Source: a virus. Taken from it: a DNA stretch of 45,716 nt. The notes beneath the pieces are model-generated. The model was not told the origin of the DNA. It did not search any database and worked only from the letters and a program-made list of their open reading frames with translations. The translations under genes and the position numbers were made by a program. Location of the stretch: the IMG/VR virus record IMGVR_UViG_3300014050_000046, positions 1 to 45,716 of that record; one strand, given 5' to 3'. Positions 15,684 to 45,716 of this stretch are shown here, piece after piece. The number at the start of each line of letters is the position of its first letter. Position 1 is the first letter of the stretch.

Positions 15684-18635
15684 TCAAGTCACCGTGATGT
15701 CATACTGCGACGCTGCGGCAAGGCCTGCCCGCAGGATCCTTGCAAAAGACCCGTCGGTCTTGACGACAATCATCTCGGAAAGCTGGTAGGCTGCCGCGCT
15801 GCCGGCACGGAAACGGGCCATAGGAGATGCCTGGGAAGGCTTAAAGCTCATCGCCACCTTTGGCTTGCCTGCTGCCGTATAGACAAGAAGGACGCGACGC
15901 CAGAGGTTTTGAGCCACGCCAGAGGACGTTGCAACCGCTGCCTTGTTGAGAGTCACCGGAAGAGGTGCCCGTGCGGCAACAGAGCCTTGCGCCATGGTTG
16001 CAACAGGAGCGTCCTGGCTTGGCGTTTCAACGGTGAAAGTGAGCGTCCCAGAAGCGCCAGAGTTGTTTCCAGCCAGGTCCTGGGCAGCGCCCGCAGGAAG
16101 GGAAATAGACATCTGGCCGTCTTGAGACGGCGTCAGCCGGATTGAATACTGGCCGCCACCAAGGTCCGTAAAACTTGAGACAGCTCCGCCTGAAACAGAG
16201 AAATCCCCAGCCAAAACCCCCGTGACGGCCTCAGAAAAAGAAGCGGTGATGACAAGGGCAATCTGCGCGATGACGCTTCCAGACAGTACTGCTGCGCCAG
16301 TTTCGGCATTAACGGCAGAGATGGTGACCGTTGGAGCGACCGAGTCAAATGTGAAGGAAAATGTGCTTGATGCGGCGTTGTTGTTTCCAGCGCTGTCTTG
16401 GCAAACCCCGGACCCAATAAGGACTGAAACCAGTCCCTCAGAGGATGGCGCGACCGAAAAAAGATAAGAACCACCAGACCCTGAAAAGCTCGAAACGGAC
16501 CCGTTTGTGACAGTGATGTCCTCAGAGGTAAACCCTGTGACCGCCTCGGAAAAAGTGGCTGCCATGGAAACAGGCCCTGTTGAGACGCTTCCCCCGTTCA
16601 GAACCGTCAAAGACGATAGGACAACACTGGGAGCAAGAGAATCCATGGTGAAACTATAAGAGCCGCTTGCCGTATTGGTGTTTCCGGCGCTGTCCTGACA
16701 AACCCCTGCCGGGATCAATACCGTCACCTCACCGTCATTTGCCGGAAGCAAGTCAAATGTATAGGTGGTGCCTGACCCTGAAAAGTTAGAAAGGGAGCAG
16801 TTTCCAAGGGACAAGTCTTGAGAGGTAAACCCAGTGACCGGCTCGGAGAAGGTGGCCGTCATGGAAACAGGGCCGGCCGAAACAAACCCGCCGCTTGAAA
16901 CCAGAGAGGAAATGGTTACTGACGGCTGGATCGTGTCGTAAGTGAACTGAAACGGGGCACTTGCCTGGTTCATGTTTCCGGCCGCGTCCTGGCAGACTCC
17001 AGAGCCGATGGAAACAGAAACCGCACCTTGGCCTGAAGGCGTGACGGAAAAGCTGTAGGTTGTCCCGGATCCTGAAAACCCGCTGATGGTTGCATTAAAC
17101 GCCGTTACATCTCCTGCCACGAAGCCAGTCACCGCCTCAGAAAATGTGGCTGTGACAAGGACAGGAGAGGAGTTGACTGCTGAGCCGCTGGAGGTGGTTG
17201 AACTAAGAGAAACCGTCGGTTGGACGCTGTCATAGGTAAAGCTGTAGGACGAGCTTGCCGTGTTGCTATTTCCAAAGAGGTCTTGGCACACGCCGGAACC
17301 AATAGAGACGGAAATACTGCCTTGTCCCGATGGCGTCACGCTAAACGTGTAGGAGCTTCCAGACCCTGTGAAGTTGGAGGCGCTTCCCCCAGTCACCGTG
17401 ATGTCGCCAACGGTGAATCCAGTCACCGTCTCAGAAAAAGTGGCTGTCATGGAAACTGGGCTTTGGCTTGTTGAGCCTGCGTTTGCGACGGAAGACGAAA
17501 GCGTCACGGTTGGAGCCGTCGTGTCCGCCTGAAGCTCAACCACCGCTCCAGTGGCCTTGCTGATCGCGTGCTGGTGATTTACGGCGCCGCCATTGTAGGT
17601 TCCGCTGTCAGCCGTAAGCCCTACAAACAGATTGAGACCGTTGCTGTAAAAAACCTGCTGCGAAGTACCACCGGAAATTCCTGCAACAGTTCCTGTAAAC
17701 GCAGAATCCAATACCAGCGAAGTCAGATTGTTAGAGCCTTTTAAGAAATTAACTGGCGCAGAAACGTCGGTCCTTGAGCGTGCAAGGTAGAGTTGATTGT
17801 CAATTTCAAGGATTGAGGACCAATAGCTTGATGAGTTCGCCGGGTCGACAAGGCCCGCTGGCATGGAAAACGATATGATGCTTCCGCTTTTGCTCAATTT
17901 GACAAAAGAGTTGCTAATCGAGGTTCCAGCATACGTTTGGAGGTATGAACCGCCGACGTAGAGATTGTTGTCGCTTAAAATGGAAATGACCCGAACCGTT
18001 CCGTTAACAAACCTCGTTGCAACTGACCAGTCGGATGCAAATGTTCCGTCTGTTTTTTTCACTTTACAAATTTGACGAGACGCCGAGCCGTTGACAGTTG
18101 TGAAAACGCCGCCAAAATAAACGTGGTTATCATCAATCGCAATAGTGTAGACGTATCCGTTGACGTTTGGCGCAAAAGATGAGTCAACAGTTCCTTGGCC
18201 TGAATTTCCAGTCACGTCAATTTTTACAAGCCTGTTTCTCGTAAGCCCCCCAACAGAAGTAAAATCACCGCCTACATACAAGGTGTCGCCATCAAGCACT
18301 AATCCGTCTGAGGTGGTGCCGCCTGTAAACGTAAGAAACGTCTGTTGGGTTCCAGAAGTTGTAGACCATTTTGTGCAATGAGCATTAGTAGCCACAAAAA
18401 TGGCATTAGTTCCTTTATGAAACACAAGGTTTCGCGGAACCCACCCCAATTGCGGCTTCCAAGTGGTGTCCACAGCCCCTGTTGCAGCGGAGTAGCGAGC
18501 GAGGTACTTAAACCCGCTAATGCCCCCAACAGTGGTAAAAGAACCGCCGACGTAGATCATGTTACCGTCGGAAGTAAAACACGTTACACCTCTAAAACCT
18601 GTTCCCGGTCCGCCAGTAGCTGGTGCATAAGCCAT
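15684..18635 (-). CDS. Large virion appendage: propeller-like repeats plus five Ig-like domains
   Basis: A 983-residue protein starting ATG at 18633-18635 with AGGAGA upstream. Residues ~1-370 carry delta-60-like repeats (Y-V-G-G-S-F-T-T-V-G-G, Y-V-G-G-D-F-T-S-V-G-G, Y-F-G-G-V-F-T-T-V-N-G), suggesting a beta-propeller. Residues ~372-850 hold five tandem Ig-like modules of ~90 residues, each with P-T-V-T-L/I-S-S, a T-A-T-F-S-E-x-V-T-G-F strand, S-G-S-G-x-x-Y and V-C-Q-D-x-x-G-N. The end (~850-983) is a separate domain. There is no signal peptide, so it is probably a virion component. Its place after the capsid-associated genes and before the connectors suggests a head fibre, neck whisker or displaced tail appendage. 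Such domains usually bind carbohydrates or other surface polymers. Confidence 0.75.
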   Translation of the reverse strand: MAYAPATGGPGTGFRGVTCFTSDGNMIYVGGSFTTVGGISGFKYLARYSAATGAVDTTWKPQLGWVPRNLVFHKGTNAIFVATNAHCTKWSTTSGTQQTFLTFTGGTTSDGLVLDGDTLYVGGDFTSVGGLTRNRLVKIDVTGNSGQGTVDSSFAPNVNGYVYTIAIDDNHVYFGGVFTTVNGSASRQICKVKKTDGTFASDWSVATRFVNGTVRVISILSDNNLYVGGSYLQTYAGTSISNSFVKLSKSGSIISFSMPAGLVDPANSSSYWSSILEIDNQLYLARSRTDVSAPVNFLKGSNNLTSLVLDSAFTGTVAGISGGTSQQVFYSNGLNLFVGLTADSGTYNGGAVNHQHAISKATGAVVELQADTTAPTVTLSSSVANAGSTSQSPVSMTATFSETVTGFTVGDITVTGGSASNFTGSGSSYTFSVTPSGQGSISVSIGSGVCQDLFGNSNTASSSYSFTYDSVQPTVSLSSTTSSGSAVNSSPVLVTATFSEAVTGFVAGDVTAFNATISGFSGSGTTYSFSVTPSGQGAVSVSIGSGVCQDAAGNMNQASAPFQFTYDTIQPSVTISSLVSSGGFVSAGPVSMTATFSEPVTGFTSQDLSLGNCSLSNFSGSGTTYTFDLLPANDGEVTVLIPAGVCQDSAGNTNTASGSYSFTMDSLAPSVVLSSLTVLNGGSVSTGPVSMAATFSEAVTGFTSEDITVTNGSVSSFSGSGGSYLFSVAPSSEGLVSVLIGSGVCQDSAGNNNAASSTFSFTFDSVAPTVTISAVNAETGAAVLSGSVIAQIALVITASFSEAVTGVLAGDFSVSGGAVSSFTDLGGGQYSIRLTPSQDGQMSISLPAGAAQDLAGNNSGASGTLTFTVETPSQDAPVATMAQGSVAARAPLPVTLNKAAVATSSGVAQNLWRRVLLVYTAAGKPKVAMSFKPSQASPMARFRAGSAAAYQLSEMIVVKTDGSFARILRAGLAAASQYDITVT

Positions 18636-27724: not shown

Positions 27725-29116
27725 TTAGTCGTCACCGTCCTCGGCAAGCGACTGGTAGAAACCGGCGAGGGAATCATCCCCGGCTAGCTTCGCCTTTTTT
27801 TCTGGGCCTCGTCCTAAGTCCTCAAGAAAAAAGACATCCATTGTTTTATCACCGTAGTTGAGCAGGCCGCTATGGGCAAGCATAAGGGAGGCCACCGTGT
27901 CGTCGTGTTTGCCCGTGGCGGCGGCGTAGGTGAGAGATCCCGCGGCCGTCGTCTTCACCTCAAAACTGTCCATCTCGGAAAGAAGCGTCTGCCAGCGTGG
28001 AAGCCATATCTGACGCTGCTCCACGGCTGTGATAAGGCGCGAGACCATCTCGGCTTTTGACTGGTTGGAAAACGTGACGCCCCGGTAGGCAAAGGGAAGA
28101 GAGGCCATGGCGTCGTCAATCGCCCCGCCGACTCCTGTTTTGTCATGGAGGATGATCTCGACATTTTCAAAGGAAGATGCAAAGTGATGCAACCGCCTGA
28201 TGGCCTCCGTGTATGGGAGCTTGTGGAAGCGTTCAAAGGCGCACACCTGGCGCGTCTCGATGTCGATGGCAGAAAAGACGCAGTAGTCGATGGTCTTCGC
28301 CCAGTCGACGCCGATGACGACCCGACGCCTTTCCGGCGTTTCAAGAAACCACCGCTGGCGGTCCCCGTAGCAGTCGATCTCCGGCCCAAAAAGGCAGTCA
28401 CGGGTGCCGGCAAAGACGGATCCGTCGTCTAGGAATTCCGCAAGATAAAACTGGCGGAAAAGCCTCTCTGGAAGCTCTCTTCTTGCCGCCTCAATCACGG
28501 CCGGGTTGATGGTCGGGTTGTCGATGGTGCGGGCCGTGATAAAGATTTTTTCCGGCGTGCGGCCGTTCCTGATCGCCCACTCCTGATGCTCTTTGGCCTC
28601 CATGCACTGGCTGTAAAACCAGTTTTTTCCAAGAGGGGTTGAGGCGATGATCATCGGCCCTTCGGTGCGCGTCGTGGTCGTCCTGGCCGAGATGTAGGTC
28701 TGGTGCGGGCATTTTGCCGCCTCGTCGATTACGTAACTGTGAATCGCCTTGCCTTCGAGCGACATCGGGTCCTTCGCGTGCCAAAACTCAATTGAGGTTT
28801 CCAACTCGGGCAGTTCAATCAGCATTTTACCGGGGCGTATGTTGGTCATCGGGGCGGGCGGCAGTATGCGCGGGAAATAATCATCAAGGCCAATTTTGGA
28901 CTGCTCGTAGATTGGGGCCACCCAGCGGTGCTTGGTCTGGCGTCTAGTAACGGCGAGGCTCGCCTGGGCGGAAACGGCCGAGATACTTTTCCCAAACTTG
29001 GTTCCGGCAGCGATATAAATTTCCCGAAGCCCAGGGATGAGAAAAGCCCCCATGATGAGGGCCTGCTTTTTTGAGTGCGGGCGAGGCGGGTCAATCGTTA
29101 CGGTCGCTTTTTTCAA
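27725..29116 (-). CDS. terL: Terminase large subunit
   Basis: A 463-residue packaging motor. The ATPase domain has an atypical Walker A (A-G-T-K-F-G-K-S, 37-44) and Walker B S-Y-V-I-D-E-A (127-133), then a coupling motif I-A-S-T-P (157-161). The nuclease domain has I-G-V-D-W-A-K-T-I-D-Y (D271) and a C-terminal K-H-D-D-T-V-A-S. It begins at TTG (29114-29116), supported by GGAG six bases upstream; the next ATG would delete the N-terminus. It overlaps the membrane-protein gene before it by 26 bases and is followed by the portal. No adjacent small subunit is seen, but a candidate lies 5 kb upstream. Confidence 0.95.
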   Translation of the reverse strand: MKKATVTIDPPRPHSKKQALIMGAFLIPGLREIYIAAGTKFGKSISAVSAQASLAVTRRQTKHRWVAPIYEQSKIGLDDYFPRILPPAPMTNIRPGKMLIELPELETSIEFWHAKDPMSLEGKAIHSYVIDEAAKCPHQTYISARTTTTRTEGPMIIASTPLGKNWFYSQCMEAKEHQEWAIRNGRTPEKIFITARTIDNPTINPAVIEAARRELPERLFRQFYLAEFLDDGSVFAGTRDCLFGPEIDCYGDRQRWFLETPERRRVVIGVDWAKTIDYCVFSAIDIETRQVCAFERFHKLPYTEAIRRLHHFASSFENVEIILHDKTGVGGAIDDAMASLPFAYRGVTFSNQSKAEMVSRLITAVEQRQIWLPRWQTLLSEMDSFEVKTTAAGSLTYAAATGKHDDTVASLMLAHSGLLNYGDKTMDVFFLEDLGRGPEKKAKLAGDDSLAGFYQSLAEDGDD

Positions 29117-32449: not shown

Positions 32450-33063
32450 AGCCTGATCCACTCCACCTCGTAGCTGCCAAAGCCCTCATCCCACTCGAGC
32501 CGTTCCATGGCCTCTTTGAAGTCGACAAGCCTTGCCATCTTTTTTTTCATGGCGCCAAGGACTTGCGACATCCTACCCCCTGTGATCCCAAGGTCGTCTG
32601 CAATGGCTATCAGGTCCTCTCCTCCAAGGACGTGGCGCTCAAAGACTTCAGCCTCCCTTCCTCCAAAGAGGAAAGCAAACTGCCAAGCGTTTCTGAGGCC
32701 TCCTGAAGCTCCTCCAGAATCATCAGGCTCTGGTGATACGAGCAGGTCCGGAGTGATTCCAGTCTCGCCATCTTCTCTTCTTGCGAGAGAGCCGTCCGGC
32801 GCGAGAAGTCCGTTAAACCTGTGATGGCGTGATCTTTCATTGCGGCCGCCAGCCCCAGTGCGACCATAATTTTTCCGTAGATAGTCGATAAAGAGGTGGT
32901 CAAATGAGGACTTGGCCCCGACACCAGAACAGAACCACACGCACACCTGGCTGAAAAAGTCATCGGCCTCCTCCGGGTATCCAAACCTCTTGGCAACAAC
33001 GCGGCAGCTTGCCTTGATCCTTGCAAAGTCTTCTTTTGAAGCAATTTTCCTTGTCTCAATCAA
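32446..33063 (-). CDS. Sigma-70-family-like transcription factor
   Basis: A protein of 205 residues if started at the TTG (33061-33063) that overlaps the methyltransferase stop as TTGA; a longer N-terminus would lie inside that gene. Residues ~15-66 resemble sigma region 2 (C-R-V-V-A-K-R-F-G-Y-P-E-E-A-D-D-F-F, L-F-I-D-Y-L-R-K-N-Y). Residues ~145-190 resemble region 4 with its helix-turn-helix (L-I-A-I-A-D-D-L-G-I-T-G-G-R-M-S-Q-V-L). It could direct host RNA polymerase to phage late promoters, and it lies just upstream of the packaging and virion genes. The assignment rests on motif spacing, not on an alignment. Confidence 0.75.
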   Translation of the reverse strand: MIETRKIASKEDFARIKASCRVVAKRFGYPEEADDFFSQVCVWFCSGVGAKSSFDHLFIDYLRKNYGRTGAGGRNERSRHHRFNGLLAPDGSLARREDGETGITPDLLVSPEPDDSGGASGGLRNAWQFAFLFGGREAEVFERHVLGGEDLIAIADDLGITGGRMSQVLGAMKKKMARLVDFKEAMERLEWDEGFGSYEVEWIRL

Positions 33064-34373
33064 ACGGCCACGACCTTTGCCATCGGGGTCAGACTTCCGT
33101 CTTCTTCCAGGCGGTGGGGTTCCTTGCCGGTAAACTGAGCCCAGCGTTTTAAGATGACGGTGCAGTAATGGGGTTCCAGCTCCATCCCGAAGCATCGCCG
33201 ACCGAGCTTCTCTGCTGCAATCAGTTGCCCACCAGATCCGCTAAACGGCTCGTAACATATCTCGCCTGGCTTGGTGTGGTTGAGAATCGGAATCTCGGAA
33301 ATGGCGACTGGTTTTTGTGTAGGGTGGATTTTGTCGTTTTCACGCCCAATCTCCCAAACTGTCGACTGATTTCTCTCGCCATAAAAAGGTGGTTCGTTTC
33401 CTTGTAGCCAGCCCATCAGGCAAAGCTCGTGACGCCAGTGGTATTGACCGCGCCCAAAAACGAAATGCGGCTTAACCCAAATTATTTGTCGGTGAAATAA
33501 TATCCCAGCAGCAGCAGCAGCAGCAATGTTGGCTTCCTTTTTCACTGCGTGCCACATGTAAAAAGCAAAGTTATTTTCACAAGCGGCAGCGATCCCAGTG
33601 GATATAGCAGAGAACAGAAACTCCTTCAACGCTTCGTCTTGAAGATCGTCGTTTGCTATTTTTTTGTAACCCTTCGACTGTCCTTTTTCCTGAGAAACTT
33701 CGACGTGATTGATTCCATAAGGCGGATCTGTTGCAAAAAGTTTCGCACGATGACCACCCATCAGCTTTTCCACATCCGTCACCGCAGTCGAATCACCGCA
33801 CATGAGCCGGTGATTTCCAAGCACCCAGACCTCGCCGCGCGAGACAATCGGCTTTTCAACCTCTGGCACTTCATCGGGATCGGTCAGGCCTTCTGTTCCC
33901 TCCACGCCATTTGCGCCGTCCAGAATGGCCTTCAGCTCGTCATCTCCAAAGCCAAGGAGATCCAAGTCAAAGCCGCCGACCTTTAGCTCCTCAAGCTCGA
34001 CTCCCAAAAGGCCCGTGTCCCAGGTCGAGTTAAGGGCAAGCTGGTTGTCTGCAATGACGTAGGCCCGCCGCTGGGTTGGCGTGAGATGCCGAAGGACAAT
34101 GCAGGGGACTTCCTCTAGGTTCAGTTTAAGGGCCGCCATTACCCTGCCGTGGCCCGCCACGATCTCCCCTGTCTCGTCGATCAAGACAGGGTTGGTGAAG
34201 CCAAACTCCTTGATGCTTGCTGCGATCTGGGCCACCTGCCAGGGCTCATGCTTTCTTGCGTTCCTGGCATAGGGGATCAGCTGATCGGTGCGGTGAAGCA
34301 CCACCTTTGCGGCTTTGATCTGGTCTTCAAGCGAAAACCTGCCCGCTTCTTTTTTACGGCTTTCCTTCGGCAT
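33060..34373 (-). CDS. ParB-domain / DNA N6-adenine or N4-cytosine methyltransferase fusion
   Basis: A 437-residue two-domain protein with ATG at 34371-34373. Residues ~28-115 are a ParB/sulfiredoxin-like domain (L-I-P-Y-A-R-N-A-R-K-H, G-E-I-V-A-G-H-G-R-V-M-A-A-L). Residues ~175-437 are a beta-class DNA methyltransferase with D-P-P-Y (216-219) before the cofactor motif P-F-S-G-S-G-G near the end. It methylates an amino group on adenine or cytosine, probably in phage or host DNA for protection or regulation; the target is not visible. Such fusions are frequent near phage packaging genes. No cognate restriction enzyme is present, so it is a solitary enzyme. The start overlaps the preceding gene by 20 bases. 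Confidence 0.92.
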   Translation of the reverse strand: MPKESRKKEAGRFSLEDQIKAAKVVLHRTDQLIPYARNARKHEPWQVAQIAASIKEFGFTNPVLIDETGEIVAGHGRVMAALKLNLEEVPCIVLRHLTPTQRRAYVIADNQLALNSTWDTGLLGVELEELKVGGFDLDLLGFGDDELKAILDGANGVEGTEGLTDPDEVPEVEKPIVSRGEVWVLGNHRLMCGDSTAVTDVEKLMGGHRAKLFATDPPYGINHVEVSQEKGQSKGYKKIANDDLQDEALKEFLFSAISTGIAAACENNFAFYMWHAVKKEANIAAAAAAGILFHRQIIWVKPHFVFGRGQYHWRHELCLMGWLQGNEPPFYGERNQSTVWEIGRENDKIHPTQKPVAISEIPILNHTKPGEICYEPFSGSGGQLIAAEKLGRRCFGMELEPHYCTVILKRWAQFTGKEPHRLEEDGSLTPMAKVVAV

Positions 34374-34806
34374 CAAGCACCTTCCCCTCTTCAATGACTT
34401 CTTGAATCAGACTGCCGTCTGCTTTCACCGTCGAGCGGTAGACGATATCAGGCCGCAGGCTCACGTCCAGATGGTTTGACTCCTTCCACCCCATGCGCGT
34501 TTTGGCCCAAAAGAAAGTCGCAGCCGGGCACTCGCCAGAGGTTGCGAGCTTAAAAAGCGTCATCGCCACCTGGGCATTGGCGCGGGCAATGCCTCGGTCC
34601 ATGGCCTCGCGCAGAAGAGAGTCTTTTTGCAGGTACCACTGGAATTTTTTTGGCTTGATCGAAACCACATACGCAATCTGGGGCTGCGTCAGGCCAAGCC
34701 CCGAGAGCTTTTCAATCTGCTGGATGGTCTCAAAATCAAGACCGTCTTTCATCCGCACGTCACGCTTTGGCGAAGTTGCATCGCTTTGCATCTCTTTGCT
34801 TTTCAT
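34354..34806 (-). CDS. Small terminase-like helix-turn-helix protein
   Basis: A protein of 150 residues from the ATG at 34804-34806; a TTG 18 bases upstream and ATGs downstream are alternatives. I-E-K-L-S-G-L-G-L-T-Q-P-Q-I-A-Y-V-V is a helix-turn-helix. The block A-M-D-R-G-I-A-R-A-N-A-Q-V-A-M-T-L-F followed by A-T-F-F-W-A-K-T-R-M-G-W resembles the DNA-recognition subunit of some phage terminases. If so, it selects phage DNA for TerL, although TerL lies 5 kb downstream. Its first codons overlap an array of 10-bp repeats (34776-34805). Confidence 0.6.
   Translation of the reverse strand: MKSKEMQSDATSPKRDVRMKDGLDFETIQQIEKLSGLGLTQPQIAYVVSIKPKKFQWYLQKDSLLREAMDRGIARANAQVAMTLFKLATSGECPAATFFWAKTRMGWKESNHLDVSLRPDIVYRSTVKADGSLIQEVIEEGKVLDAEGKP
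34776..34805. repeat. 10-bp tandem repeat TTGCATCKCT, three copies
   Basis: TTGCATCGCT (34776), TTGCATCTCT (34786) and TTGCTTTTCA (34796) follow each other with a period of exactly ten bases. They overlap the first codons of the small-terminase-like gene. The same unit recurs near 41.43-41.48, 42.18, 44.88 and 45.52 kb. Confidence 0.55.
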
Positions 34807-35559: not shown

Positions 35560-35626
35560 AAAGTCTAACGCTGCCGCAAGGCATGGCTTCGCCGTTTGAC
35601 CTAACTCACCTTGGTCGGGGGGGGCG

Positions 35627-35649
35627 CTCTATATGCTGAAGGTATAGAG
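35627..35649. promoter_or_regulatory. Operator-like palindrome before the serine protease gene
   Basis: CTCTATA (35627-35633) and TATAGAG (35643-35649) form a perfect 7-bp inverted repeat with nine bases between. It sits 16 bases before the protease ATG and partly covers a TATATG that could serve as a -10 element. A regulator bound here would block both transcription and the ribosome site. No good -35 is visible at normal spacing. Confidence 0.5.
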
Positions 35650-35664
35650 GGAGAGGAGCAACCT

Positions 35665-36396
35665 ATGTTTAATTTGATTTCCGCTTTGATGTTCTTTGCA
35701 TCACCTGTGATGGCTGAATCCATCGAGCTTATCGGAGGAGGCCCCGCCCCGGCGGGAGAGTATCCTGCGAGCGTCTACCTTGAAATTGACGGCGGATGGT
35801 GCTCGGGGACTGTAGTCGGTGAGAGGGCTGTCTTGACTGCGGCTCACTGTGCCATTGGAAAAAAAACCATCCGCTTTGATCTTGGGGGAAAGACCTTCCG
35901 GGGAAGCTGCGAGCAGGCGAGGAGCTACAAGAAAAATGAGACGGCTGACTGGGCTCTTTGCTCTCTTGACGGATCAGTTGAGGGGATTCCTTTTGAGCGC
36001 CTTGAGGCAGACGAGAGGGCAGTTGAAGAGGGGGATCTTCTCATGCTGACTGGCTACGGCTGCACTGTTCCTGGGCGGGGCACCGGGGGCAATGACGGGA
36101 TTTACCGCATTGGAGAGGCCAAGGTACTTGATGTCCCGGCCGGCAGGAGTAATGACATCGTCCTTGCCAGCGGAGCGGCCCTTTGCTTTGGCGATTCGGG
36201 AGGACCTGGCTTTCGCATCCAGAAAGACGGCAGGAGAAGGGTGGTTGGCGTCAACTCGCGGGGAGACATCCGGGTCATGAGCTTTTTGAGCGCGACCTAC
36301 ACCGACCAAGCGAGGTCTTTTTTCCGCTCATGGGCTGCAAAAAAGGGGTTACAAGTCTGCGGGGTTTACGGAAGCGAAGACGGGTGCAGGGAGTGA
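35665..36396 (+). CDS. Secreted trypsin-like serine protease
   Basis: A 243-residue S1-family protease. The ATG at 35665-35667 has GAGGAG seven bases upstream and opens a signal peptide (hydrophobic L-I-S-A-L-M-F-F-A-S-P-V-M-A, cleavage after residue ~17). The triad is complete: H61 in L-T-A-A-H-C, D95 in A-D-W-A-L, S178 in G-D-S-G-G-P. Paired cysteines suggest disulfides, so it probably acts in the periplasm or outside. The I-E-L-I-G-G-G-P region before the mature core may be a short propeptide. It has its own terminator and runs against the early operon, as expected of a lysogenic-conversion (moron) gene. Contribution to host lifestyle or to lysis is inference. Confidence 0.9.
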   Translation: MFNLISALMFFASPVMAESIELIGGGPAPAGEYPASVYLEIDGGWCSGTVVGERAVLTAAHCAIGKKTIRFDLGGKTFRGSCEQARSYKKNETADWALCSLDGSVEGIPFERLEADERAVEEGDLLMLTGYGCTVPGRGTGGNDGIYRIGEAKVLDVPAGRSNDIVLASGAALCFGDSGGPGFRIQKDGRRRVVGVNSRGDIRVMSFLSATYTDQARSFFRSWAAKKGLQVCGVYGSEDGCRE

Positions 36397-39127: not shown

Positions 39128-40210
39128 TCAATGCAGCTTTTCCAAAGCAACAGAGGCATCGAGCCCACGAGCTTCGAGCGCGGCCGTTGACCCCTCCATC
39201 CATTTTGGCGAAAGATGCATATAACGCTGGGTCGTCGTGACGCTGACATGGCCCATGAGGGCTTGGATCACCCCGACCGGAACGCCCTTGATCGCAAGGT
39301 GCGAGGCAAACGTATGGCGGAGGTCTTGGATGCCGATGGGCTTAACTCCGGCCTTCTGGCACGACGGCTTGAACTCTTTTCCGCAAAGCCGTTCCAGGAG
39401 CATGGGGAAATTAAAAACCTTCGTCTCGGCTGAGGCCGGTTTCAGGTGCTCAAGGTCGGAGTAGACAATCTGGTTCATCGGGATGAAACGGGTGCGCCTT
39501 CCCTTGGGCGGCTTCACCGTCCTTGTGACGTAGTCAAAAGACTTTGAAATGGTGAGAAGGCGGCGGTCAAAGTCGAGATCCCCGCGCAAGAGAGCCTCTG
39601 CCTCGCCACGCCTGAGTCCGGTGTTCATCAGGACCGACGCCAGCATATAAAGACCAGGATCGTGTTGAGCCGCCCATGCGAGATACTTTTCCGCCTCCTG
39701 AAAGTCCCAGTAGTTGAATGGCTGCTCGGTGAGCTTAAGCGGCCGGACAATCGCAATCGGGTTCTCTGAAATGACTTCCCAGTAAACCGCATCATTCATC
39801 ATTTTTTTCAGAAGACCGACGATCGAGTTGACGGTCCGCGGCTTTCTTCCCTTGGACAAGACGGCTTGAAGGTCTGTTGCTACCGCGCGGGTGATCTCAG
39901 TCAGCTTCATCTCGCCAAGGCGCGGAGCAAGGTGCTTGAGGATAATGTTTTCGTCACCGTGGGCGGTTCCGGCAGATTTGAAAACCTTGGCGTGTTTTTC
40001 AAGCCAGACGGGCCAGAACTCGTTGAAGGTTGGCACCCCGTAGCCGGGGATCGTCAATTCGCGGAGGCTTCCTGGGGTTTGCTTTGCAATCTCAAGTTTC
40101 GCTTCCCAAGCCCGCGCCTCTTCCTTGCGCTCAAAGGTCTTGGAATACTGCCTTCCGCAGTAACGCCAAACAACCAACCATTTACCACTCGGTCTTTTGT
40201 GTATGCTCAT
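39128..40210 (-). CDS. int: Tyrosine integrase
   Basis: A 360-residue site-specific recombinase from the ATG at 40208-40210 (GAGGA seven bases upstream); an ATG 27 bases earlier is possible. It begins with an arm-binding-like S-I-H-K-R-P-S-G-K-W-L-V-V-W-R. The core-binding domain spans ~65-160. The catalytic domain has R200 in T-G-L-R-R-G-E, a Lys near 236, R298 and H299 in Q-D-L-R-H-T, H321 in M-G-H, and the nucleophile Y330 in Q-R-Y-M-H. The first position of the usual H-x-x-R box is Gln (Q295), an uncommon but tolerated change. It ends at the arm-type repeats, next to attP in tRNA-Arg(UCU). Confidence 0.95.
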   Translation of the reverse strand: MSIHKRPSGKWLVVWRYCGRQYSKTFERKEEARAWEAKLEIAKQTPGSLRELTIPGYGVPTFNEFWPVWLEKHAKVFKSAGTAHGDENIILKHLAPRLGEMKLTEITRAVATDLQAVLSKGRKPRTVNSIVGLLKKMMNDAVYWEVISENPIAIVRPLKLTEQPFNYWDFQEAEKYLAWAAQHDPGLYMLASVLMNTGLRRGEAEALLRGDLDFDRRLLTISKSFDYVTRTVKPPKGRRTRFIPMNQIVYSDLEHLKPASAETKVFNFPMLLERLCGKEFKPSCQKAGVKPIGIQDLRHTFASHLAIKGVPVGVIQALMGHVSVTTTQRYMHLSPKWMEGSTAALEARGLDASVALEKLH

Positions 40211-40281
40211 CTCTCGGTCCTCTTGTGGGCGGTTCATTTACTCAACCAGCTAAACCACCCATGAACTCACCCTCAGGGCAA

Positions 40282-41386: not shown

Positions 41387-41475
41387 CAGCGAGTCAATCC
41401 CGTGAAACCACTGCCGCCCAACTGCTTTGCGTCTTCTTGCACTTCCTTGATCTTCATTGCATCTCTATTGCCCAT
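41386..41475 (-). CDS. 29-residue leader-like ORF
   Basis: ATG at 41473-41475 to TGA at 41386-41388 encodes 29 residues (M-G-N-R-D-A-M-K-I-K-E-V-Q-E-D-A-K). The stop overlaps the start of the next gene, suggesting translational coupling. It lies over a row of 10-bp repeats, so this could be regulatory DNA that happens to be open rather than a gene. Confidence 0.4.
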   Translation of the reverse strand: MGNRDAMKIKEVQEDAKQLGGSGFTGLTR

Positions 41476-41487: not shown

Positions 41488-42195
41488 TTATGCGACGCCA
41501 AACCGGAACCGTCTTCTCTGGATGTACGCCCTTTTGGCTTCCATGGTCGGAAAGACCGACGACCCGGCAACTTGGTTGCAGCGTGGGCAGGACAAAACGA
41601 GATTGTTGAAGTTGTTTGTCCCACCAAAGCTAATCGGGATGATGTGCTCGATGTGGTATTTTTCTAACTTGCTAAAGCAATACGCGCAGTCGCCTTGCTG
41701 AATCTCCATCAGCCTTCTGACGATTTTTACTGAGATCACGCCTTTTTTTCGTGCCGTTCCCGCCAAACAACGAAAGTTCAGCCGACCTGGATCTGTGACG
41801 CCTCGATTGGGCCATTCTGTCTGACAGGACGCACAGGAAATATCGTTCAGAGAAGAAATTGAAATCGCACGGCATACTTCGCAACGGAATCTAATCAGAA
41901 AAACATCGCCAGCCTGAATGACCTCCTTCACAGCCATCGGTTCGCAAAATTCGATTTTCCGAAATTCTTTTTTATCGGATTTTATTAGTCCGAGTTTTTC
42001 CATTTCTGATATGCAAAATCGCTCTATAGTCGCCTTGCGTTTTTTAGGCCCCGCCTTACGATTTCCACCGAACAGGCTTTTAGGTTTGAGATTTTCGCTG
42101 TCCATCAATCGAATTCCCTCGTTTTGTCGGAAACAACCGTCGTTTTTTTTCACTGCTTTGATGAAACTTCTGTTCTGCATCTCCTTGCATCTCAC
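41488..42195 (-). CDS. HNH endonuclease with extra zinc-finger
   Basis: A protein of up to 235 residues; the GTG at 42193-42195 overlaps the helicase stop as GTGA, and the ATG at 42178-42180 is an alternative. Cys105, 108, 121 and 124 (C-E-V-C, C-A-S-C) form a zinc site. The C-terminal part is an HNH nuclease: C-A-Y-C (170-173), H-I-E-H-I-I-P (181-187), N-N-F-N-N-L-V and C-P-R-C-N (203-207). It cuts or nicks DNA. Its place after the helicase gene, with a lower-GC sequence than the neighbours, suggests a free-standing homing endonuclease. A packaging role is less likely because it is far from the terminase. Confidence 0.8.
   Translation of the reverse strand: MRCKEMQNRSFIKAVKKNDGCFRQNEGIRLMDSENLKPKSLFGGNRKAGPKKRKATIERFCISEMEKLGLIKSDKKEFRKIEFCEPMAVKEVIQAGDVFLIRFRCEVCRAISISSLNDISCASCQTEWPNRGVTDPGRLNFRCLAGTARKKGVISVKIVRRLMEIQQGDCAYCFSKLEKYHIEHIIPISFGGTNNFNNLVLSCPRCNQVAGSSVFPTMEAKRAYIQRRRFRFGVA
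42175..42194. repeat. 10-bp repeat pair at helicase/HNH junction
   Basis: CTGCATCTCC (42175-42184) and TTGCATCTCA (42185-42194) are adjacent, matching the dispersed unit TTGCATCTCY. They cover the overlapping stop and start of two genes. Confidence 0.5.
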
Positions 42196-43610
42196 CTTTG
42201 GGATCCGAGAGAGGCGAGCACCTGATCGGCCGAATCTTTCTGGCGGCGACGGATGATCTTGCCGGCATCGCCCGTTGTTTTGACCCGTGAGAACGCAAGT
42301 TCCATCTCAAGCGGGAAACTGACCCCCGCCTCGTCGTGGCGGTGCTTTTCAACCAAAAGCTGCGTGGGCTCGTCCTCTGTCCCCCGGTGGACGAACATCA
42401 CGATGTCGGCATCTTGTTCAAGCGAGCCGCAGTCTTTAAGCATCGAAAGGGTTGGGACCACGGCCCCTGTCCTCTCGGCGTCACGGTTAAGCTGGGCGCA
42501 GCCAAGGACAGCGATTTTAAGTTCCTGCGAGAGCGCTTTGATGCGCCCCGTGATGTGGGTCAGCTCTTGCACCCGGGAGTTCCACCTTTCCCCCGGGCAG
42601 GAAAGTTGCTGGAGGTAGTCGACGATCACAAGAGAGAGCTTGTAGCTTTTCGCGTGCTGACGGATTCGCCTTTCGACGACGTTCCAGTCGGGCATCGATT
42701 TGTCGTCAATCGCAACGGGAAGGTCTCGCAGCGAAATGATGGCCTCTTTGAAGGCCTCCATGTCGCTTCCCTCCCCAAACTCGCCCCGCCTCATCCGGTT
42801 GGATGAGATCCTGCTGCCGTGGGAAATCATTTTTGTCGTCAGTTCCGTGTGGCCCATCTCGTGAGTGAAGTAGAGAACGCGGGAACCGGATCTTGCCGCT
42901 CCCAGGGCGATGTTGATGGCGACTGTCGTCTTGCCCACCCCCGGTCTTGCTCCGAGGACGTGGAAGCCCTGACGGTTGATGCCGCCATATTTTGCGTCAA
43001 ACTCTCCAAGGCCGGTTTTGATCAGAAGCGACTCGCCGGAGGCCTTGGCCTTTATCGCCCGTTCAAGCTCTTCTGTCGCAGCCTCAAGGCTCTCCTGGAG
43101 AAGAACCGTGCGCCCTCCACTCACCGCTTTGACCGTTAAGAGATCGTCCCAGGTCTTTGCCGCAAGCGATGAGACGTCTTTTGGCTCATCTGGATTGAGG
43201 GACGCCACGTTTGCCGCCAGCTCGTTTGCCTTTCTTGCAACGGCCTCGGCCTGCGAAAGGGCAATGATGTGGTTAGCGTGATAGACAGCCGACTGCGCTA
43301 CGGGCGCGTTTACGAGGATATCGACGATCTCAACGTTCCAGATCGGCGGGTAAACCTTGCCGGCCGTCACGGCTTCCCATCCAAGCGGCCGACCAGACTG
43401 AAAGGCGTCTACAATCCAGCCCCAGAATGTCCTGTGGCTTTCCCGCTGGAAGTGATCGGGGGAAAGACCGGCACCAAGGCACTCCTCGACAATGCGGCTT
43501 GCCTCCCTCGGGCCGTTGTTCCAGACCATGCCCACAATTTGCAGCTCGTCTTTTTCCCGCTGGGGAAGGCCCTGGTAGTAAGACGCCATGGCATCTTGGC
43601 TGGCAATCAT
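42192..43610 (-). CDS. dnaB: DnaB-like replicative helicase
   Basis: A 472-residue helicase starting ATG at 43608-43610, which overlaps the loader stop as ATGA. The N-terminal helical domain (~1-115) is followed by a linker helix and a RecA-like domain with Walker A G-A-R-P-G-V-G-K-T (220-228) and Walker B L-V-I-V-D-Y-L-Q-Q-L (327-336). Other DnaB motifs are E-M-G-H (motif 1a region, normally E-M-S/P), L-G-C-A-Q-L-N-R (sensor) and L-K-D-C-G-S-L-E-Q-D-A-D. It unwinds DNA at the fork as a hexamer and is loaded by the neighbouring DnaC-like ATPase. Confidence 0.95.
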   Translation of the reverse strand: MIASQDAMASYYQGLPQREKDELQIVGMVWNNGPREASRIVEECLGAGLSPDHFQRESHRTFWGWIVDAFQSGRPLGWEAVTAGKVYPPIWNVEIVDILVNAPVAQSAVYHANHIIALSQAEAVARKANELAANVASLNPDEPKDVSSLAAKTWDDLLTVKAVSGGRTVLLQESLEAATEELERAIKAKASGESLLIKTGLGEFDAKYGGINRQGFHVLGARPGVGKTTVAINIALGAARSGSRVLYFTHEMGHTELTTKMISHGSRISSNRMRRGEFGEGSDMEAFKEAIISLRDLPVAIDDKSMPDWNVVERRIRQHAKSYKLSLVIVDYLQQLSCPGERWNSRVQELTHITGRIKALSQELKIAVLGCAQLNRDAERTGAVVPTLSMLKDCGSLEQDADIVMFVHRGTEDEPTQLLVEKHRHDEAGVSFPLEMELAFSRVKTTGDAGKIIRRRQKDSADQVLASLGSQR

Positions 43611-44350
43611 CTCTGGCTCTCCCAGTCAAACTCGATGACACCAAGGCCGTTGTCGTTCATCCGGTCGGCCACTCGCTCACCAAGAAATCGCTTCATCTCG
43701 AACGTCGGGAGGTTTGACAGAATCAGCGTCGGACGCCGCCTGATGTAACGCTCGTCGAAAATGTGGCAAAGCATCTGCCGTTCAAAGTCGCTTCCAAACT
43801 GGACGCCAATTTCGTCCAGAATGAGAAGGTGCGGATCTGTGAGGCCAGAGATGATCTCAAGCTCTGTCTCCTCGCCGTTACGGTCCCGCCAAGACGCCTT
43901 GATGCGAAGCATGACGTCCTGCACCTTCGCGTAAACAACCGAGAGGCCAAGGTCGATGAGCGCAAGGCCAATAGCACTGGCAAGGTAGGTCTTCCCAGTT
44001 CCCGGGTTCCCAACAAATGCCGCGCACCGGCCGCCACCACAAATTTCGCGGAAGTCCCGGATGTAGTTTTTTGCAAACTCCAAGACACGCTCTTGGCCTG
44101 CGTTTTTCACCTGCCACGCCTCAAGCGAGGCGTCGGCAAAACGTGGTGGGATGCCAGAGTCTTTAAGGCGCAGACGTTTCTCGGCCTCTTTCTCGCGGCG
44201 ACGGCGTTCGGCCTCTTCTTTTTCCTCGGCGGCTTTTCTTTTGGCCTGGCATCCAGGACAACTTGTCCAGAAAAAATGCCGTCCCGTAAGCGTCACGGGC
44301 TCGGACTGGTAGCTGCCGTGCTCCTGGCACTGTCTTGTCTCAGGCTTCAA
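43607..44350 (-). CDS. dnaC: DnaC-like helicase loader
   Basis: A 247-residue AAA+ ATPase. The N-terminus has a probable zinc site (C8, H11, C31, C34 in C-P-G-C) and a charged coiled coil (A-E-E-K-E-E-A-E-R-R-R-R). The ATPase part has Walker A G-N-P-G-T-G-K-T (114-121), Walker B L-L-I-L-D-E (175-180), a sensor S-N-L-P and the arginine-containing V-A-D-R-M. It matches the DnaC/DnaI family that places the hexameric helicase on DNA. ATGA overlaps with both neighbours tie it to one operon with initiator and helicase. Confidence 0.92.
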   Translation of the reverse strand: MKPETRQCQEHGSYQSEPVTLTGRHFFWTSCPGCQAKRKAAEEKEEAERRRREKEAEKRLRLKDSGIPPRFADASLEAWQVKNAGQERVLEFAKNYIRDFREICGGGRCAAFVGNPGTGKTYLASAIGLALIDLGLSVVYAKVQDVMLRIKASWRDRNGEETELEIISGLTDPHLLILDEIGVQFGSDFERQMLCHIFDERYIRRRPTLILSNLPTFEMKRFLGERVADRMNDNGLGVIEFDWESQR

Positions 44351-45279
44351 AACCGACCCCCGTTTGACCAGACAATCGGCTTGTCCCTTGGAGGCGGTTC
44401 ACTGGATGGCCGCTTTGAAGACACCCACTCGGCCTTAAAGCTCCTCCAACCTCGAAGCACGCACTCGGTCAGGGCAGCCTCAAGGGTCCACCCGGCCTTT
44501 GACGCCTCGCGGATGATCCCGTCGAGGGCTGTCTGCGTGACCGGGGCCTTGGCGATCTTCCGGCTTGCCAGGAAGTCGGACCACGTCTGGTCGCTCACGC
44601 CCGGGGGTTGAGTGACTGGCTTTCTCCTTGGCTCCTTCCCGGGAGTGGGATCTTCCTCGGCTTCAAGTTTTGAATTCGAATCACTGCCTGAATTTTTTTC
44701 AGCGACAACACTGCACCCCCCGGAGGGGGGAGGGGGGGTATTATTTTTATTATCAGGAGCAAGAGAAAGAGCAGGAGGAAGAGCAAGAGAAAGAGCAAGA
44801 GGTAGGCTTTCATATTTTGAAGCGTTTGCTTGGCCAATGGTTTTCGCACTGCTTTCGCTTTCAAAAGCGTTTGGTTTTTGCATCTCCATTGCACTTGCTG
44901 CCGCAGGCTTTTGTTTTCCAATTTTCCTTGGCCTTCCGCCTAGTTTTCCCCTTTCGGCCTGTCCGACCAGATACGCGATGCGTTTGTCGATCCCCTTGAC
45001 GACGACGTCCTGCCCATCTCGAAAAACGACGTCTGCTTCGACAAAAGCGTCGATAAGTTGCTCAGGATCTCCCGACCACTGGCAGGCATAGGCAACCTGT
45101 TTTGGAGTCAGTTTTGGGGTGCGTTTGTTGTAGCAGTGGTTCCACAAAAGCAAGCAGCGATACCTCGAAAGCCAAAGGTTTTGGACGTGCAAGGGGACGC
45201 TTTCTTGCCCCAAAATCGTCGCCAGATAATCAAATCTTGGATCCGACCAGAATTCTTGATCCACGTTGACTCTTGCCAT
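44347..45279 (-). CDS. Replication initiator (O-like) carrying a likely origin
   Basis: A 310-residue protein from the ATG at 45277-45279; AAGGAG lies eleven bases upstream. The N-terminal domain (F-W-S-D-P-R-F-D-Y-L-A, L-W-L-S-R-Y-R-C-L-L-L-W-N-H, L-I-D-A-F-V-E-A-D-V-V-F) resembles the winged-helix DNA-binding part of phage initiators. The middle (~140-220) is disordered and low-complexity (L-A-L-S-L-A-L-P-P-A-L-S-L). The end (V-S-D-Q-T-W-S-D-F-L-A-S-R-K, L-E-A-A-L-T-E-C-V-L-R-G-W-R) is a helical region common in replisome-organiser proteins. As in lambda O, the low-complexity part is made by tandem DNA repeats beside an AT-rich stretch. Confidence 0.85.
   Translation of the reverse strand: MARVNVDQEFWSDPRFDYLATILGQESVPLHVQNLWLSRYRCLLLWNHCYNKRTPKLTPKQVAYACQWSGDPEQLIDAFVEADVVFRDGQDVVVKGIDKRIAYLVGQAERGKLGGRPRKIGKQKPAAASAMEMQKPNAFESESSAKTIGQANASKYESLPLALSLALPPALSLAPDNKNNTPPPPSGGCSVVAEKNSGSDSNSKLEAEEDPTPGKEPRRKPVTQPPGVSDQTWSDFLASRKIAKAPVTQTALDGIIREASKAGWTLEAALTECVLRGWRSFKAEWVSSKRPSSEPPPRDKPIVWSNGGRF
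44739..44804. repeat. Putative replication origin: four 12-bp repeats beside an AT-rich block
   Basis: GAGCAAGAGAAA (44757), GAGCAGGAGGAA (44769), GAGCAAGAGAAA (44781) and GAGCAAGAGGTA (44793) are four contiguous 12-bp units inside the initiator gene. Directly beside them lies an AT-rich stretch (44739-44755, only one C/G in 17 bases) followed by long G-runs. This is the iteron plus unwinding-element layout of lambdoid origins. The repeat also encodes a Leu/Ala/Pro stretch, so a protein-level cause is possible. Confidence 0.6.
44878..44894. repeat. 10-bp repeat unit inside initiator gene
   Basis: TTGCATCTCC (44878-44887) is followed, one base later, by TTGCAC (44889-44894). It matches the dispersed unit found upstream of the gene and elsewhere. 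It lies 75 bases from the 12-bp repeats. Confidence 0.4.
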
Positions 45280-45303
45280 GTTGCTGCCCACTCCTTGGCG
45301 CTT

Positions 45304-45382
45304 AAAAAGAAAAAACCCCGCTCGACTTTTCATCCGCACTTAGACCGCCAAGTCCAAGCCCGTTTGCGTTGTCGAGGCGGGG
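45304..45382 (-). terminator. Attenuator-like terminator before the initiator gene
   Basis: On the minus strand CCCCGCCTCGAC (45382-45371) pairs with GTCGAGCGGGG (45326-45316, one bulge), followed by TTTTTTCTTTTT (45315-45304). The 44-base loop has its own small stem (CTTAGAC 45339-45345 / GTCCAAG 45352-45358, one mismatch). It ends 25 bases before the initiator ATG and downstream of the promoter at 45602-45630, so it would stop most leader transcripts unless overridden. Confidence 0.7.
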
Positions 45383-45390
45383 CCACGTTT

Positions 45391-45454
45391 TGCCGCCAAG
45401 AGTCTCAGCGGAAATCGTAATCACGCATCACAAACAGGTTTAGACTTGGCGGCA
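45391..45454. promoter_or_regulatory. Leader inverted repeat able to form alternative stems
   Basis: TGCCGCCAAGAGTC (45391-45404) is complementary, with a one-base bulge, to GACTTGGCGGCA (45443-45454). A second CCGCCAAGTC at 45345-45354, inside the attenuator loop, can pair with the same arm over ten bases. The leader RNA could therefore fold in two exclusive ways, or these are repressor half-sites. Confidence 0.55.
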
Positions 45455-45485
45455 AAGCCAATTTGCAAAAAAGAAGCGGACGCGG

Positions 45486-45524
45486 CAACAAGTAAGTGCA
45501 GTTATACCGCATTTACTTGTGTTG
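45486..45524. promoter_or_regulatory. Long imperfect palindrome in replication control region
   Basis: CAACAAGTAAGTGC (45486-45499) and GCATTTACTTGTGTTG (45509-45524) form an inverted repeat with a nine-base centre; it has one substitution and a two-base insertion. It borders the 10-bp repeats that start at 45522. It could be an operator or a hairpin in the leader RNA. Confidence 0.6.
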
Positions 45525-45547
45525 CATCTCCTTGCATCTCTTTGCAC
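45522..45547. repeat. 10-bp tandem repeats TTGCATCTCY upstream of initiator
   Basis: TTGCATCTC at 45522 and 45532 and TTGCAC at 45542 have an exact 10-base period, one helical turn, so proteins bound here would lie on one face of the DNA. It is the best-matching copy of a unit that recurs in the replication cassette. Confidence 0.6.
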
Positions 45548-45601
45548 AACGGAAATGGGAAAATCAGCGGAGCACTCAGCGGTCAGATCAACGAACGGCG
45601 G

Positions 45602-45630
45602 CTTATAGCGATTCGCAACTATGGTTGCAA
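45602..45630 (-). promoter_or_regulatory. Promoter of the replication operon with operator-like palindrome
   Basis: On the minus strand TTGCAA (45630-45625) and TATAAG (45607-45602) are spaced by exactly 17 bases, a good sigma-70 promoter. The spacer carries an inverted repeat ATTCGCAAC/GTTGCAAT around TATG, so a repressor there would block polymerase. The start point would be near 45595, giving a leader of about 315 bases. Confidence 0.72.
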
Positions 45631-45716
45631 TTCACCATAATCATGGATGGTTATGCCCCCTTTAAGGGGGGGGGGGGGGGGGGGGGAGGGAGTATGTGGG
45701 GGGAAAGCAGCACGAC
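45631..45716. other. Right-edge sequence with 21-G run
   Basis: No gene is visible here. A run of 21 G (45666-45686) is followed by G-rich sequence. CCCCC-TTTAA-GGGGG (45656-45670) forms a small hairpin at its start. Such a run at a contig end is typical of a read artefact, so the last ~50 bases should be treated with caution. Confidence 0.6.

Follow-up and report, generated by a model that had tools for sequence, protein, structure and literature searches.

Intragenic replication origins are known from a few model phages, lambda and SPP1 among them. In lambda, the origin lies inside the O gene, where an array in the middle of the gene is followed by an AT-rich tract (PMC7466680). The SPP1 proteins gp38, gp39 and gp40 form an initiator-loader-helicase cassette, and oriL, located in gene 38, combines direct repeats with an AT-rich DUE (PMC6316719). 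A comparable element of a bacterial chromosome is found at the oriC of B. subtilis, where the DnaD recognition element and the DnaA-trios constitute a short, periodic, strand-specific and T/C-rich single-strand element next to the sites at which the initiator binds double-stranded DNA (PMC10201434).

The DNA that we analysed, hereafter the window, is a stretch of 45,716 nucleotides from an IMG/VR virus record. A replication cassette occupies its right end on the minus strand. The loader and helicase genes sit downstream of the initiator gene, and the loader gene overlaps the initiator stop by 4 bases:

44347..45279, minus strand: O-like replication initiator, 310 aa, with a C-domain match to phrog_678
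43607..44350, minus strand: DnaC/IstB-like helicase loader, 247 aa (phrog_50, E=3.1e-69; PF01695, E=4.4e-16)
42192..43610, minus strand: DnaB-like replicative helicase, 472 aa (PF03796, E=4.3e-56; phrog_19, E=1.7e-68)

As in SPP1, an initiator-loader-helicase cassette is found together with repeats and an AT-rich block inside the initiator gene. Lambda, in contrast, has P, whereas the window phage has a DnaC-like loader and its own DnaB-like helicase.

The initiator is laid out as a winged-helix-like N-domain (residues ~1-110), a disordered linker of ~120 residues (~110-229) and a conserved C-domain (~222-290). The phrog_678 profile, 'replication initiation O-like', matches residues 178-292 (E=3.4e-19) and finds a match in lambda O too, in its N-terminal part. 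BLASTP revealed no similarity between the window initiator and lambda O, and lambda O matches phrog_277 whereas the window initiator does not. Membership of the lambda O (phrog_277) family was ruled out by this lack of similarity together with the different repeats and the different loader. The initial annotation had described the protein and its repeat unit as apparently unrelated to lambda; this holds for BLASTP similarity and for the repeats, but not for the C-domain, whose profile reaches into lambda O. Judging from these profile matches, the window initiator is a domain chimera with a C-domain common with phrog_678, rather than a protein wholly unrelated to lambda O. Whole-protein searches for close relatives of the initiator gave C-domain matches only: the last ~70 structured residues are widespread and the N-domain is not.

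A search of PDB sequences gave no match. The single-sequence AlphaFold model of the whole initiator was poor (pLDDT 45), and the fold comparison of the N-domain rests instead on an AF2 model built from 6 sequences (pLDDT 72), which displays helices and a two-stranded wing. The best BFVD matches of this model were primosomal protein 1 (E=5e-4) and a replisome organizer (E=0.013), with weaker matches to DUF1376 and Lin1244/Lin1753 N-domains; its structure matches in the PDB were wHTH regulators only, all insignificant (E of at least 0.06). The modelled N-domain would fit a DNA-binding initiator domain. From the fold and the profile matches, we infer that DNA binding is the task of the N-part and loader binding that of the C-part.

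Two elements lie side by side in the disordered middle of the initiator, as the initial annotation had described for four 12-bp repeats and a 17-base AT-rich block:

44757..44804, minus strand: hexamer tract, eight CTCNNN on the coding strand, that is, four 12-bp GAGCAAGAGAAA-like units on the plus strand
44739..44755, no strand assigned: AT block, TATTATTTTTATTATCA, 16/17 A/T, candidate unwinding element

The tandem array at 44757-44804 reads GAGCAAGAGAAA / GAGCAGGAGGAA / GAGCAAGAGAAA / GAGCAAGAGGTA, hence the four 12-bp units. Its description had to be refined on two points. First, GAG (CTC on the coding strand) recurs at 6-bp steps in 8/8 hexamers, which makes 6 bp the basic period, and the hexamer GAGNNN describes the array better than the 12-mer; TRF called a period of 6, 12 or 24 (score 76-85). 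Second, the array codes for residues ~160-176, inside the part of the linker without predicted regular structure, and the encoded peptide repeat is Leu/Ala/Ser/Pro instead of Leu/Ala/Pro. The array is held at the DNA level, far beyond chance. Its self-match score of 23.0 was matched by none of 1000 codon shuffles and none of 1000 synonymous-codon shuffles, 15/15 of its codons are NNT (P ~10^-8.7, about 2e-9, conditioned on the amino acids and on the codon usage of the phage), and no other tandem repeat in the 45.7-kb window scores as high. Outside the array, the 12-mer is no more frequent in the genome than chance predicts (58 seen vs 60 expected). The coding strand of the tract is almost free of G and A, with CTC every 6 nt and 15 TnnT within 48 nt, and the repeat unit (6/12-bp direct repeats) contains no dyad.

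The AT block adjoins the hexamer array and follows it in the coding direction, and no 16-mer of the window is less stable than the one within it. With 17 bp the block is short, a G/C-rich run (44719-44737) comes next, and at the 25- and 40-mer scale its region is surpassed in instability by other parts of the window. The features of an intragenic origin found in the window are an array within the initiator CDS, between the N- and C-parts, and a destabilised AT-rich neighbour that is short and weaker at 25-40 bp. Cumulative GC skew, a check proposed beforehand, was uninformative about the origin. The lambda ori likewise shows an intragenic array next to an AT-rich tract, and the lambda array (iterons annotated in NC_001416) was detected by the same repeat statistic (z 4.4). 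However, the four iterons of lambda are 18 bp long and have inverted symmetry, whereas the window hexamers are devoid of dyads. The resemblance to the DnaD element lies in the periodicity of the tract and the frequency of TnnT; the phage element differs in being inside a gene, and in one relative described below, L140, TnnT is missing.

Relatives of the initiator were then sought through its N-domain. Searches with the window N-domain alone or with the loader alone gave no relatives, and none of 398 genomes of one phylum contained an N-domain relative, a result that says little, as the host may belong to another phylum. Scanning 2.9 million viral contigs for GAGCARGAGRAAGAGCARGAGRAAGAG led to two loci, L135 and L136. 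The L136 initiator starts with MARINIEEKLWNDIRF, which resembles the window start MARVNVDQEFWSDPRF (E=6e-7 in one comparison of just the two sequences), and L135 is a DUF6291-like gene with a similar layout, a putative initiator at most. Protein-only N-domain profiles recovered L139 and L140, then L142 and L143. These four are independent, whereas L136 was picked up by the DNA pattern itself and is thus not an independent test. The N-domain relatives are five only, with 18-37% identity.

CTCNNN hexamers were found at the same place of the linker in 6/6 genes (the window and its five N-domain relatives), with 8 consecutive CTC hexamers in the window, 11 in L136, 4 in L139, 6 in L140, 5 in L142 and 12 in L143. 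In each of these genes, codon shuffles never attained the observed hexamer run. The peptides encoded by the hexamers vary (LALSLALPP, LTLSPALSP, LTLTPTLS, QSQSQSQ(S), LTLTLTPT and poly-Ser), and L143 reads the hexamer in another codon phase. Because the peptides differ, and the codon phase too in L143, it is the DNA and not the protein that is conserved. The initial annotation had considered homologues that keep the Leu/Ala/Pro peptide while losing the DNA repeat, and the opposite was seen. The array of L143, whose contig stops just past it, is a nearly perfect CTCTTC repeat that looks recently amplified, and the L140 repeats are CTCAAT. TnnT was rejected as the common core of the hexamer tracts, being present in five of them and absent in L140. 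The C-domains of this class are of the phrog_678 type in the window, of the DnaD/primosomal type in L136 and L140, of a third type in L139 and unassigned in L142. Since the same hexamers stand alongside differing C-domains, they follow the N-domain; likewise, one C-domain pairs with AACCAAT, CAGAGA or CTCTTG tracts according to the N-domain. As far as these pairings tell, the repeat type goes with the N-domain and not with the C-domain. The lambda-like origin design first proposed for this locus is thus sustained by the linker array, the destabilised block, the initiator-loader-helicase cassette and the CTCNNN hexamers common to all five relatives. We consider it probable that these repeats belong to the origin from which the phage replicates, located within its initiator gene.

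Linker arrays were also scored across initiators that share the C-domain. The sample comprised 27 non-redundant initiators, scored against codon shuffles, with 71 other ORFs of the same loci as controls. Arrays with z of at least 5 were present in the linker DNA of 23/27 initiators vs 1/71 other ORFs (Fisher p=2.7e-17), and arrays in the 27 initiators are positioned at 36-61% of gene length. The period is not a multiple of three in 16 of the 27 (for example 7, 11, 13, 14, 16, 22 and 25); judging from their period, the 7- and 11-base units cannot be protein repeats or products of in-frame slippage. In the KGWxKFQHF class 11-bp repeats are followed by CAGAGA hexamers, and further initiators display units of 17, 18, 21, 22 or 25 bp. 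The phrog_678 O-like/DUF1376-type primosomal proteins have the same C-domain as the window initiator and linkers with DNA arrays, but another N-domain and other arrays, namely 11-bp TTCAACGxCCG repeats, then 7-bp AACCAAT/AACCATA repeats. The NQEP/NHKP repeats in these proteins arise as a side effect of the DNA repeat. Among the DUF1376-type loci recovered (L002-L035, L120, L123, L132), most carry the 11-bp and/or the 7-bp repeats in the linker.

When 372 ORFs from helicase-bearing loci were scanned in a partly independent test, 17 had z of at least 6; about nine of these were read as initiators, so that arrays are not exclusive to initiators. In 1.15 Mb of phage DNA, a sample of loci chosen around replication genes, with L135 and L136 fetched by pattern, and hence no genome-wide rate, we counted 10 runs in which at least 5 CTC/GAG follow each other at 6-bp spacing. 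Recognisable initiators account for nine of these runs, and L135 for the last. CTC is on the coding strand in five of them (the N-domain class of the window), GAG in the other five (the L119/L121/L013/L076 class and L135). The mRNA strand of the L119/L121/L013/L076 class is a purine-rich GAGACA. In the freely accessible literature that was searched, neither the hexamer/heptamer element nor the arrays of DUF1376-type initiators turned up.

In four of the five N-domain relatives, a separate 11- or 12-bp array precedes the hexamers, which are kept. L136 contains CATCCAGTTAAC ~11 times just upstream of them, as a 12-bp array, L140 four 11-bp units with an AAGCG core, L142 CCCTTCATGCA repeats and L143 CCCGAACACAG repeats (p<0.01 in each). 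In L139 and in the window, the stretch upstream of the hexamers holds no more than weak repeats, and in the window neither the upstream arrays (p=0.49) nor the best pair (p=0.08) were significant. The window pair, AACCAAACGCTT/AAGCAAACGCTT (p=0.08), belongs to this stretch:

44806..44876, minus strand: weak candidate initiator-binding elements, a CAAACGCTT..GAAAGC pair spaced 45 bp (p=0.08)

By their position, the upstream arrays would fit double-strand iterons, and the hexamers the flank of an opened region. In our judgement, the hexamers are likelier to be an unwinding or single-strand element, to which we give slightly better than even chances, than to be double-strand iterons. The scenario that we propose is as follows. 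The N-domain would bind double-stranded iterons within its own gene or adjacent to it, and the strain arising from this binding would open the AT block. The hexamer tract would then form the flank of the unwound region, with one strand held by the initiator; alternatively, the hexamer strand could serve as a landing strip for the DnaC-like loader and the DnaB-like helicase. The C-domain would recruit the DnaC-like loader, and theta replication would start once the hexamer strand is held or passed on to loader and helicase. The steps from binding onward are drawn from lambda (PMC5043065, PMC7466680), and the single-strand idea is modelled on the DnaA-trios and the DnaD recognition element (PMC10201434).

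It could also be that the 12-bp repeats are themselves the double-strand iterons of the initiator, in lambda O fashion, with the AT block as the unwinding element and no separate iteron array. We regard this as rather unlikely. The array and the AT block do follow each other in the coding direction as in lambda, and L036 is similar, with 18-bp repeats and then an AT/purine-rich stretch. Moreover, since the window has no significant upstream array, the hexamers are the sole strong array there, which keeps the iteron reading alive. However, four of the five N-domain relatives possess the second array immediately upstream and retain the hexamers all the same. The hexamer core has only three fixed bases, and a recognition site specific to one domain is hard to reconcile with the presence of the GAG/CTC hexamer alongside an unrelated N-domain class. 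A helically phased iteron array (~10.5, 11, 21, 22) was discarded as well, because the spacing in the window is 6/12 bp. The new iteron family suggested in the initial annotation is supported only in part: the 11/12-bp upstream arrays of the four relatives appear to fit initiator-binding iterons better than the hexamers do, in which case the hexamers would resemble a strand-asymmetric element for unwinding or for single-strand contacts.

A second alternative, which we hold to be improbable, places the real origin upstream of the initiator gene, in 45280-45716. This repeat-rich non-coding region adjoins the initiator and contains an imperfect 27-bp inverted repeat, three GCCGCCAAG-type motifs and 10-bp TTGCATCTCC repeats. 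Yet such motifs are equally typical of promoter and operator regions, and the TTGCATC repeats are dispersed at several other places in the genome, so a regulator fits better than an origin.

Still less probable is that slippage during replication generated the array in a disordered linker free of constraint, with no function in cis. Here the origin reading has its limits, as the 6- and 12-bp units are in frame and slippage could have amplified them; linkers tolerate changes in length, and the near-perfect CTCTTC array of L143 does look recent. Nevertheless, the same CTC core is present in 6/6 divergent relatives, such runs are concentrated in initiator genes, and the control ORFs of the same loci are without arrays. 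Sister families, furthermore, keep 7- and 11-bp arrays, in which slippage would shift the frame.

An action of the element as RNA, for example through a rut-like, pyrimidine-rich site or a translation-control site of the initiator mRNA, is very unlikely: this mRNA would be C/U-rich and G-poor, but the mRNA strand is GAGACA in the L119/L121/L013/L076 class and AACCAAU in DUF1376 initiators, which leaves no common RNA feature, the common feature being one of the double strand. Least likely of all is selection on the peptide as a proline/leucine/alanine-rich linker, for although low-complexity linkers occur in all such proteins, the homologue comparison contradicts it, with LALS, LSPA, LT, QS and poly-S among the N-domain relatives, one relative in a different reading frame, and the window codons fixed as NNT.

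The design seen here would be a variant of the intragenic phage origins. More tentatively, and with somewhat less than even confidence, we propose for the many N-domain classes a general two-part linker origin, in which class-specific 11-22-bp double-strand iterons would be followed by strand-specific 6-/7-nt single-strand loading repeats, an analogue of the DnaA-trios and the DnaD recognition element; the pair would move with the N-domain, as one cassette, across loader-recruiting C-domains. The design is readable from the sequence in dozens of unrelated, mostly uncultivated initiators, and metagenomic phage origins could thus be located without experiments. Hexamers that are kept while peptide, frame and C-domain change also show clearly how a signal in the DNA dictates the linker of a protein. 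They raise the question of whether short strand-specific repeats load the helicase at phage origins, as the DnaA-trios and the DnaD element do in chromosomes.

Other features of the window deserve mention. A dispersed 10-bp tandem motif, TTGCATCTCC/TTGCATCGCT, is located at 28174-28192, 34776-34794, 42175-42193 and 45522-45546, and also at 41457 and 44878. TTGCATCTC occurs 7 times vs ~0.5 expected under a Markov model, and TTGCA-N5-TTGCA pairs 4 times vs 0.07 expected. This motif looks like the operator family of a regulator, with one copy inside the initiator gene. Upstream of the initiator, between 45344 and 45453, an imperfect 27-bp inverted repeat encloses three GCCGCCAAGTCT-like sites, two of them in direct orientation and the third inverted; they are a possible operator or alternative origin element. 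A poly-G run near the contig end (45666-45690) may mark an assembly break. An HNH endonuclease gene (41488-42195) is found near the replication cassette, and the HNH gene beside the L136 initiator (L136:3032-3487) matches some of the same phrogs; the two genes possibly reflect a shared phage lineage. The segment 38962-39010, beside a tyrosine integrase gene (39128-40237), resembles a tRNA 3' end, where ARAGORN detected no complete tRNA, and is a candidate attP. In a single ORF (33060-34394), a DNA methylase domain (PF01555) scored above cut-off, and the N-terminal part gave a weak ParB_N-like match that stays below the Pfam cut-off. A trypsin-like serine protease with a signal-peptide-like start (35611-36396; PF00089, E=4e-17) is encoded on the strand opposite to its neighbours, and a large protein at 15684-18635 contains five Big_12 Ig-like stretches.
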